Of a DNA stretch of 49,473 nucleotides, positions 37,835-47,798 are shown piece by piece (position 1 is the first letter of the stretch; every line of letters begins with the position of its first letter). Location of the stretch: NCBI GenBank assembly GCA_900018335.1, contig FIZK01000010.1, positions 1-49,473 on the forward strand, read 5' to 3'. The position numbers and the translations under genes are program-made. Source of the DNA: an uncultured Clostridia bacterium (GTDB lineage Bacteria > Bacillota > Limnochordia > Darwinibacteriales > Darwinibacteriaceae). The notes beneath the pieces were generated by a model that did not search any database, had not been told where the DNA came from, and saw only the letters and a list, made by a program, of their open reading frames with translations.

Positions 37835-38470
37835 CTAGTTGCCCGACAGGCTGGAGCGGCCCAGGAGCTCTTCCCAGATCGCCTCTAAGTTAATGCGCCT
37901 GAAGACTAAGAGCACTAAGAGGTGATAGAGGAGATCGCTCACCTCGTAAACCAGCTCTTCGTCTTCTTGGTTTTTCCCGGCGATAATCACTTCGGTTGCT
38001 TCTTCTCCAAAAGCCTTCAGTATTTTGTCCAGGCCGTTATCCATCAGGTAGTTGGTATACGAACCTACCTTAGGCGAACGCCTGCGGTCTTCTATGTTGG
38101 CATACAGCCAGGAGAGGGCTTCCCGCTGCGGGAGAAGATCACTCTGGTCAGGGCCATCGGACATAATCAGGTTATGAAAACAAGTGTAAGACTCTCCATC
38201 ATCATCACAGGCACCGTGGCCGTGCTGGTCCACGATGATTAAAACCGTATCCCGATCGCAGTCTGCCGTAATGCGCCGCACTTTTTGGACATTCCCTGAT
38301 TCAGCACCCTTTTTCCAAACCTGTTTTCGTTTGCGGCTGTAAAACCAGGTCTCTCCTGTCTGCAGCGTCTTGTTGAACGCTTCCTCGTTCATGTACGCCA
38401 TCATCAGAACCCTTCCTTGGGTATCCTGAATAATGGCTGGCACTAGACCGTTCTCGTCGTACTTAATCAT
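37835..38470 (-). CDS. hisIE: HisIE-like phosphoribosyl-AMP cyclohydrolase/phosphoribosyl-ATP pyrophosphohydrolase (variant HisI motif)
   Basis: MIKYDENGLVPAIIQDTQGRVLMMAYMNEEAFNKTLQTGETWFYSRKRKQVWKKGAESGN; TADCDRD; HisE part SYTNYLMDNGLDKILKAFGEEATEVIIA...SDLLYHLLVLL. Confidence 0.9.
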   Translation of the reverse strand: MIKYDENGLVPAIIQDTQGRVLMMAYMNEEAFNKTLQTGETWFYSRKRKQVWKKGAESGNVQKVRRITADCDRDTVLIIVDQHGHGACDDDGESYTCFHNLIMSDGPDQSDLLPQREALSWLYANIEDRRRSPKVGSYTNYLMDNGLDKILKAFGEEATEVIIAGKNQEDEELVYEVSDLLYHLLVLLVFRRINLEAIWEELLGRSSLSGN

Positions 38471-38486
38471 AACCTCACCCCCAATC

Positions 38487-39719
38487 CTATTCCCACTCGA
38501 TGGTGGCCGGCGGCTTTGGACTGATGTCATAAACCACCCTGCCAACCCCTTGAACTTCCCCCAGCACACGCGCACTTATGCCGGCCAGTAGGTCGTGGGG
38601 GACGCGCACCCAATCGGCACTCATACCATCCCTGCTCTCCACAAAGCGCAGGCCGACCACGTAATCATAGGTCCTTCCGCCTCGCTGCACCCCAACGCTG
38701 CGCACGTTGGTGAGCACTACAGCGGCCTGCCAAATCTTGTCATACCATCCTGCCCGGCGGAGTTCCTCCATAACAATGGCATCCGCTTTCCTCAAGATGT
38801 CCAGCTTCTCCCGGGTCACGGCCCCCAGAACACGGATGGCCAAGCCCGGCCCCGGGAAGGGGTGCCTCCACAGGATTTCCTTGGGCAGCTGCAGCTTTTC
38901 GCCAAGCTGGCGCACCTCATCTTTAAAGAGCACGGCCAGCGGCTCAACAAGTTCAAAACGCAGGTCTTCGGGCAGTCCTCCCACATTGTGGTGGGATTTC
39001 ACCAGGGTGCCCGGCCCCACACCGCTTTCCAGCACATCGGGGTAGACGGTCCCCTGCACCAAGAACGCCGCATCGCCCAGCTTGGCCGCCTCTTCCTCAA
39101 ACACCCTAATAAACTCTATGCCTATGATCCTGCGTTTTTGCTCTGGATCCTCGATTCCCTCCAGCTTGCTCAAGAAACGGTCCTGGGCCTGCACGTGGAC
39201 TAGGGGAATGCCGAAGCCCTCCCTAAAGGTTGCCACGATCTGTTCACTCTCGCCTGCCCGCATAAACCCGTGGTCCACGAAGATACAGGTGAGCTGTTCG
39301 CCCACGGCGCGATGGGCCAGGACGGCAGCCACGGCAGAATCCACACCTCCGCTCAACCCGCAGATAGCTCGGGCGCTCCCCACCTGGGCGCGGATTTTGT
39401 CCACCGCCTCAGTCAGGAAACGGTCCATGCTCCAATCCCGTTCACTGCCGCAGGCCTCCGACAAAAAAGAGTCCAGCCTGGAATCGGGGGGAAACTCCTC
39501 ACCCAGCTGCAGCATGGGCACGGACAGCTTGGAAAGGAGTTCGTCTAAGCGCGGAGAAACCATCCCCGTGACAATGATCCCGTCAGGCTCGGGCCCCTGC
39601 AGCACCTGAACCGCGGCAGAACCAGGGACGATTTCGCTGAAAACACCCAACTTGCGCACTTGCCTAGCTACATCCTGGGCATGTAGAGAGCCGCCATCAA
39701 CTACTAAGATCCGCTTCAA
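38487..39719 (-). CDS. guaA: GMP synthase with truncated, apparently inactive glutaminase domain
   Basis: ATP pyrophosphatase domain ICGLSGGVDSAVAAVLAHRAVGEQLTCIFVDHGFMR and complete C-terminal dimerization domain ending TIEWE. TTG start at 39719 inferred from ggcggaggg RBS; N-terminal region about 96 aa. Confidence 0.92.
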   Translation of the reverse strand: MKRILVVDGGSLHAQDVARQVRKLGVFSEIVPGSAAVQVLQGPEPDGIIVTGMVSPRLDELLSKLSVPMLQLGEEFPPDSRLDSFLSEACGSERDWSMDRFLTEAVDKIRAQVGSARAICGLSGGVDSAVAAVLAHRAVGEQLTCIFVDHGFMRAGESEQIVATFREGFGIPLVHVQAQDRFLSKLEGIEDPEQKRRIIGIEFIRVFEEEAAKLGDAAFLVQGTVYPDVLESGVGPGTLVKSHHNVGGLPEDLRFELVEPLAVLFKDEVRQLGEKLQLPKEILWRHPFPGPGLAIRVLGAVTREKLDILRKADAIVMEELRRAGWYDKIWQAAVVLTNVRSVGVQRGGRTYDYVVGLRFVESRDGMSADWVRVPHDLLAGISARVLGEVQGVGRVVYDISPKPPATIEWE

Positions 39720-39735
39720 CAAGCAACCCTCCGCC

Positions 39736-40296
39736 TCAATTCTCGAGCACACCCACGTAGGGCAGTTCCCTATGCTTATGATTGTAATCTAAGCCGTATC
39801 CTATAACAAACTCATCGGGTATGGTGAAACCAACGTAGTCAGGGGTGAACTCGGTCCGCCTCCGCTCAGGCTTGTCAAGGAGCACGGCGGTCTTTAAAGT
39901 GGCAGGATTGCGCGACTGCAGCAGCTGATGGAGGTAAGACAAAGTGAGCCCGGAGTCAATAATATCTTCCACAATGAGCACGTGCTTGCCTTCAATGGGC
40001 TGGTCCAGATCTTTGAGCAGCTGAACCACCCCCGAGGTTTCGGTGGCCTGGCCGTAGCTGGAAATGGCCATGAAGTCCACTTCCAAAGGCACGGAAATCT
40101 GCCTGATTAAGTCGCTCATGAACACCACAGCACCTTTGAGAATGCCGATCACCAGAAGGTCTCTGCCCTGGTAATCCCCGCTGATCTCCCGCCCCAGCTC
40201 CTGCACCCGTTGTGCAATTTCTTCTGCGCTGATCAGAACCTTCACTCGCAACCCTATCCCACCTGTTGACGATTTTCGTACTAGTATTTTCGCCAC
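39736..40296 (-). CDS. hpt: hypoxanthine phosphoribosyltransferase
   Basis: VIGILKGAVVFMSDLIRQI, VLIVEDIIDSGLTLSYL, IPDEFVIGYGLDYNHKHRELPYVGVL. GTG at 40245 is an alternative start. Confidence 0.95.
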   Translation of the reverse strand: MAKILVRKSSTGGIGLRVKVLISAEEIAQRVQELGREISGDYQGRDLLVIGILKGAVVFMSDLIRQISVPLEVDFMAISSYGQATETSGVVQLLKDLDQPIEGKHVLIVEDIIDSGLTLSYLHQLLQSRNPATLKTAVLLDKPERRRTEFTPDYVGFTIPDEFVIGYGLDYNHKHRELPYVGVLEN

Positions 40297-47081: not shown

Positions 47082-47798
47082 CTACTGCACTGCAGCCGCC
47101 TGCACAAAATGCCTAAAGATTGCCTGGGCAGCCAAGCAGCGTTCTGCCATGAGTTCGGGATGCCACTGTACTCCCAGGACGAAGCGGTGCCTAGTGCTTT
47201 CCACAGCTTCCACGATGCCATCTGGTGCCGTGGCTGAGATCCTCAGCCCCTGGCCCACCTGCCTGATGGCCTGATGATGGAAGGAGTTTACCCGCAGGCC
47301 GCCGCTGCCCAAAATGCCGCTGAGCAGTGTGGAAGGCTGCACATCTACGTCATGGGTGCCGTACCAGCCCGGTGCCTGCTGCCTATGCTTCAGGGCACCG
47401 TTAACCTCAGCGGGGATATCCTGGATTAGACTGCCCCCAAGGGAGACGTTGAGGACCTGAATCCCCCTGCAGATGGCCAAAAGGGGCAGATCGTGCTCTA
47501 GAGCGAAGGCGGTGACAGCCAGATCCAGTTCATCCCGGAGGGGACTGATCTCGCCGCAGCCCTCTTTGGGCTGCTCTCCGTAGCGAATGGGGTCCACATC
47601 CACGCCGCCGGTGAGGACCACTCCCTGCACCGAGGAAAGGATGGCACCAAGCTGTTCCGCTTGCTGCGGGGGGACGATCAGGGGAACGCCGCCCGCGTCA
47701 GCAATGGCTTGAACATAAGCACGGTGAATAAAATAGCGGTGAGGGTTTTCGCTGTTATACTGGGCGACTAAGCCGATGAGAGGCTGTCTGCTGGACAT
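47082..47798 (-). CDS. peptidase C26 / gamma-glutamyl-gamma-aminobutyrate hydrolase family protein
   Basis: VVLTGGVDVDPIRYGE, LLAICRGIQVLNVSLGGSLIQDI, NSFHHQAIRQVG, GVQWHPE. Confidence 0.92.
   Translation of the reverse strand: MSSRQPLIGLVAQYNSENPHRYFIHRAYVQAIADAGGVPLIVPPQQAEQLGAILSSVQGVVLTGGVDVDPIRYGEQPKEGCGEISPLRDELDLAVTAFALEHDLPLLAICRGIQVLNVSLGGSLIQDIPAEVNGALKHRQQAPGWYGTHDVDVQPSTLLSGILGSGGLRVNSFHHQAIRQVGQGLRISATAPDGIVEAVESTRHRFVLGVQWHPELMAERCLAAQAIFRHFVQAAAVQ

Follow-up and report, generated by a model that had tools for sequence, protein, structure and literature searches.

The glutamine-hydrolysing GMP synthase (GuaA, EC 6.3.5.2) requires a class I GATase (glutaminase) domain with a Cys-His-Glu triad, which in the two-domain enzyme, as in E. 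coli (1gpm), is fused to the ATP pyrophosphatase (ATPPase) and dimerisation domains. In archaea, two-subunit GMP synthases occur (PMC10526850), in which the ATPPase subunit (2dpl, 6jp9) is a chain without an active GATase and the GATase subunit is encoded separately. The triad of GMP synthase was described as invariant in a 2023 review (PMC10526850), and a survey published in 2012 and covering 730 genomes listed the enzyme as 100% fused, with no case devoid of the glutaminase (PMC3376133). According to published work, NH4+ can serve as a substrate in vitro both for GMP synthases and for isolated ATPPase subunits, and the ATPPase does not need the GATase for its activity (PMC10526850); the PfGMPS C89A_C113A variant had the best kcat/Km for ammonia among the enzymes compared (PMC9312489). 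In the related case of NAD synthetase, 44% of the enzymes in the 2012 survey were without a glutaminase, and a glnA mutation, which lessens the competition for ammonia, suppressed nadE mutants with a high ammonia requirement (PMC3376133). In the open-licence literature, no description was found of a GATase-less, truncated or pseudo-glutaminase GuaA.

The locus discussed here lies in a stretch of 49,473 nucleotides (the window) from an uncultured Clostridia bacterium. The guaA gene occupies positions 38487..39719 of the minus strand, as an in-frame ORF recognized by the family profiles, and encodes a GMP synthase of 410 residues with a truncated GATase. This is the position and approximate length given in the first-pass annotation, with the correction that the start codon is TTG; a Shine-Dalgarno-like GGAGGG (39727..39732, minus strand) is found 7 nt 5' of this TTG (39719). 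Directly upstream, across a 16-nt gap, a phosphoribosyltransferase gene on the same strand (39736..40296) was read from its sequence as hpt, and directly downstream lies hisIE (37835..38467, minus strand). The PF00117 search found no HisH-like protein in the window's genome, so that the histidine pathway may be partial or run on ammonia.

The synthase part of the protein is that of a GuaA in every respect surveyed. Residues 101-410 match TIGR00884 guaA_Cterm with 469 bits (cut-off 339), and the C-terminal dimerisation domain (38490..38819, minus strand) matches PF00958 GMP_synt_C with 127.6 bits (cut-off 27). The PP-loop SGGVDS of the ATP pyrophosphatase (residues 123-128, 39336..39353), the lid-loop motif KSHHN (residues 241-245, 38985..38999; role from PMC10526850) and KDEVR (residues 266-270, 38910..38924), a motif of the α12 interface and of substrate contact (PMC10526850), all on the minus strand and located by alignment, are present together with DVLES (DxxES) and the C-terminal KPPATIEWE, and their key positions are invariant or nearly so in an alignment of 32 sequences. 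Curated cut-offs being passed and PP-loop, lid-loop and C-terminal motifs being in place, the protein belongs to the GuaA family by its synthase part, and the earlier view that the ATPPase and dimerization domains are complete was borne out. Both domains align end to end with those of the E. coli enzyme, and the predicted fold matches.

The difference from two-domain GuaA resides in the catalytic half of the GATase, which is missing along with the triad. TIGR00888 guaA_Nterm matches residues 4-55 only, with 29.8 bits against a cut-off of 172. In the alignment with 1gpm, residues 3-55 correspond to E. coli 9-61 and residues 82-410 to 194-525, whereas residues 56-81 (26 residues) stand where E. 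coli GuaA has residues 62-193 (132 residues), a net loss of about 106 that agrees with the roughly 100 residues, including nucleophile elbow and His-x-Glu, reported missing in the first-pass annotation. The columns of the nucleophile Cys, the His and the Glu are all gaps, and the class I GATase with a Cys-His-Glu triad that defines EC 6.3.5.2 is not found in this protein. What is kept is an N-terminal half with the first four strands only (residues 1-79, β1-α1-β2-α2-β3-α3-β4; 39483..39719, minus strand), delimited by AlphaFold2 (block pLDDT 81-92), DSSP, the partial TIGR00888 match and dN/dS. The deletion junction was placed by alignment at residues 73-80 (39480..39503, minus strand); missing there is everything from the nucleophile elbow through His-x-Glu, about residues 85-193 of the E. 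coli enzyme. As a further correction to the first-pass annotation, its segment VPMLQLGEEFP represents strand β4 followed by a new short loop. Judged from its sequence, the GATase is catalytically dead through deletion, in line with the initial reading of an internally deleted, inactive domain.

A gene of this shape could be the product of an assembly collapse, or a pseudogene in decay, and the draft state of the genome (145 contigs) leaves some room for this explanation. Among 60 relatives that were searched and whose frames were read, however, the short GuaA form was found in all five congeners and in nearly all of the family (f1), as expected if the deletion is inherited. The GATase is intact in none of the family members whose guaA could be read; normal GATase domains are met in more distant relatives only. 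Within a single genus (g5) of this family, a full-length but point-dead form (G009, with GIGFGF and FEPD) occurs beside a short one (G015). Furthermore, the guaA frame is open, the ATPPase motifs are complete and dN/dS is low, which together make a collapse or a decaying pseudogene extremely improbable. The guaA of the window is a real, inherited gene, and its product is probably a functional, ammonia-dependent enzyme.

The retained half-domain deserves separate consideration. By the method of Nei and Gojobori, which yields rough values here with dS partly saturated, dN/dS of residues 1-72 was mostly 0.16-0.34, with a few pairs at 0.44-0.57 (two genera); the values are lowest around α1, mostly 0.03-0.18, against 0.03-0.16 in the synthase part, and these ratios indicate that the remnant is under purifying selection. 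The AlphaFold2 model (32 sequences; mean pLDDT 85.7) shows residues 1-90 as a predicted β-α-β-α-β-α-β-α arrangement (DSSP) with block pLDDT values of 81-93, and the best PDB matches of the model are full-length GMP synthases, the first of them with a TM score of 0.88 by query length. In this context one should recall that in known GMP synthases helix α1 of the GATase faces helices α11 and α12 of the ATPPase beside the lid loop (PMC10526850). As α1 is the documented docking face, the kept half is the docking side of the domain and the deleted half its catalytic side. It may be envisaged that the half-domain is retained as a cap over the ATPPase, and that α1, docked on α11 and α12 beside the lid loop, may keep the lid closed over the intermediate. 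On the other hand, purifying selection and a confidently predicted fold, together with the similar halves that a number of other families in the phylum have kept, would also be compatible with a half-domain that has been re-purposed beyond a structural cap, with a new ligand or partner, e.g. in regulation of the ATPPase. In the 32-sequence alignment no new motif was seen to be conserved, apart from the ancestral residues of α1 and β1, and other lineages have apparently dropped the domain entirely, so that it is not always needed; re-purposing is therefore considered unlikely, and the cap remains the preferred reading.

If the enzyme is to be supplied with ammonia by a glutaminase acting in trans, as in the archaeal systems, the source might be a class I GATase encoded on its own in the 9% of the genome that is not covered, the Peptidase C26 protein or an amidase. 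The α1 docking face is kept in the remnant, two-subunit enzymes provide a precedent, and a C26-like protein is encoded about 7-15 kb from guaA in many genomes of the class; in the window, this Peptidase C26 (class I GATase-like) gene lies at 47082..47798, about 7.4 kb from guaA. The TIGR00888 search, which was positive for 14 of 14 controls, among them archaea whose GATase subunit is encoded separately, gave no match over cut-off to a stand-alone GuaA-type GATase in the window's genome (G000, 91% complete), and no GATase gene adjoins guaA in the window. The search for a second guaA or a stand-alone GATase subunit proposed with the first-pass annotation has thus been carried out, and neither was found; the guaA of the window is the only one detected in this genome. 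The PF00117 proteins detected comprise PyrG, in which Cys and HPE are preserved, and Peptidase C26. The latter was set aside as a trans glutaminase, since G066, G059, G056 and G030, in which the GATase is intact, have similar matches near guaA, which means that the presence of C26 does not track the loss of the GATase. No degenerate genome of the class has a GuaA-type GATase over cut-off except G050, where it is the point-dead domain of GuaA itself. A glutaminase in trans is accordingly regarded as very unlikely. The protein resembles the archaeal ATPPase subunit in being a chain without active GATase, but it differs in that half of the ancestral GATase is still fused to it, and in that the separate GuaA-type GATase gene which would place it among the two-subunit enzymes was not found in the 91% complete genome.

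Within the class (73 genomes), guaA_Cterm is over cut-off in 69 genomes and guaA_Nterm in 18. Scoring of the residues classified the GATase as degenerate in 50 and intact in 18 of 68 guaA genes, leaving out G035, with an unreadable N-terminus, and four genomes without a guaA match (G006 and three of family f6). G050 was scored as degenerate although it is over the guaA_Nterm cut-off, as Gly replaces the Cys, and G067 as intact; the guaA of G067 (L177) is split over two frames, probably by a sequencing or assembly frameshift, given that it is nearly identical to the intact G040. On a tree built from the synthase region alone, parsimony requires seven changes between the intact and degenerate states. 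Intermediates exist, namely full-length domains with Cys replaced by Gly (G032, G009, G050), partly deleted domains (G024, family f10) and the half-domain of f1; the full-length GATases with replaced residues include AIGYGM in G050, GIGSGM together with FDPD in G032, and EIHYGS in G036. As a side observation, G006, G037, G042 and G046 have matches to GuaB and PurF, with no guaA over cut-off and no PF00120 match.

In a sample of the phylum (Bacillota), 324 of 399 genomes are over the GATase cut-off. The synthase is encoded in 53 of the 64 weak-GATase genomes examined, and the nucleophile Cys is in place in none of the 30 weak-GATase guaA genes that were read as loci. Frames of 322-352 aa are present in fifteen phylum genomes, and around the six of them examined as loci no GATase was found within about 1.5 kb. 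Outside this sample, the exchange of Cys for Gly at the nucleophile was encountered in full-length GuaA from Tepidanaerobacter sp. EBM-38, a Syntrophomonadaceae MAG and two other Bacillota MAGs (L116, L122, L123, L078). Within the class, several branches have undergone equivalent losses of the GATase, and further lineages of the phylum likewise have dead or truncated domains or apparently none, a repeated loss that is absent from both the 2023 review (PMC10526850) and the 2012 survey (PMC3376133).

A PF00120 glutamine synthetase is found in 18 of 18 genomes with intact and 15 of 50 with degenerate GATase (Fisher p 8e-8, kinship ignored), and in 0 of the 4 class genomes without guaA, in counts that may overlook GSIII-type glutamine synthetases, as the search missed the Bacteroides control. 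When kinship is taken into account, four independent pairs on supported branches remain, two to three of them concordant for glutamine synthetase and none discordant; with only four pairs, the association cannot reach significance. CarA is present in 17 of 18 intact and 6 of 16 degenerate genomes among those with CarB (Fisher p 6e-4, kinship ignored), an association that likewise stays short of significance once phylogeny is corrected for. In ten of the degenerate genomes CarB was found but not CarA, and five of these carB loci were examined. In G011 (L213), pyrB-pyrC-carB-pyrK-pyrD-pyrF follow in order, with no carA among the six frames assigned by NCBIfam, and in G060 (L214) the first four frames are pyrB-pyrC-carB-pyrK, again with no carA among them. 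As read from the frames only, G036 and G065 (L215, L217) are similar to these in order, length and leading residues, and in G054 carB is not among the recognisable pyr frames.

GuaB is found in 70 and PurF in 62 of the 73 genomes of the class, the latter count including a few partial matches to other class II amidotransferases. In the window's genome, which is 91% complete, GuaB is matched but neither PurF nor CarB, and its GuaA may therefore act in salvage and not in de novo synthesis. From the intact GATase of PyrG it follows that some glutamine is still available to the cell. Limnochordia, the class given for this bacterium in its GTDB lineage, abound in thermophilic biogas reactors with high ammonia (PMC11932165), which agrees with an explanation by ammonia supply but is no proof of it.

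Taken together, the protein is very probably an ammonia-dependent GMP synthase derived from an ordinary two-domain, glutamine-hydrolysing GuaA. The enzyme would adenylate XMP with ATP in the usual manner, and the adenyl-XMP would then be attacked directly by free NH3, with neither glutamine nor a channel involved. Ammonia would be abundant for these anaerobes, and, most of them being without a recognisable PF00120 glutamine synthetase, little of it would be drained into glutamine; the loss of the GATase may have been tolerated for these two reasons. A studied parallel is the ammonia-dependent NAD synthetase (NadE without glutaminase), likewise an adenylating amidotransferase that relies on ammonia only. 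There, however, the single-domain form is taken as ancestral in the 2012 survey (PMC3376133), whereas in GuaA the glutaminase has been lost. Carbamoyl-phosphate synthetase without CarA offers a second parallel, in that carB stands without carA in pyr operons of genomes with a degenerate guaA; it differs in that a separate subunit is lost rather than part of a domain, and no CarB match exists in the window's genome.

A wider proposal, to which an even chance may be given, holds that several anaerobic lineages of the Bacillota have rewired nucleotide synthesis from glutamine to free ammonia. The glutaminase of GuaA would have been eroded stepwise, from an exchange of Cys for Gly through partial deletion and the half-domain to complete loss; the pyr operon would have lost carA, a PF00120 glutamine synthetase would often be absent, and the half-GATase would be kept as an ammonia-adapted lid over the ATPPase. 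For the 410-residue protein itself, the top NCBIfam match is 'glutamine-hydrolyzing GMP synthase'; such names, given by whole-protein homology, probably do not apply to these proteins, and metabolic models of biogas communities would be misled by them. The genomes hold a natural series from active to point-dead, half-deleted and absent GATase, replicated in several lineages, by which the worth of glutamine channelling to the cell, and the part of the GATase that the synthase still needs, become directly testable.
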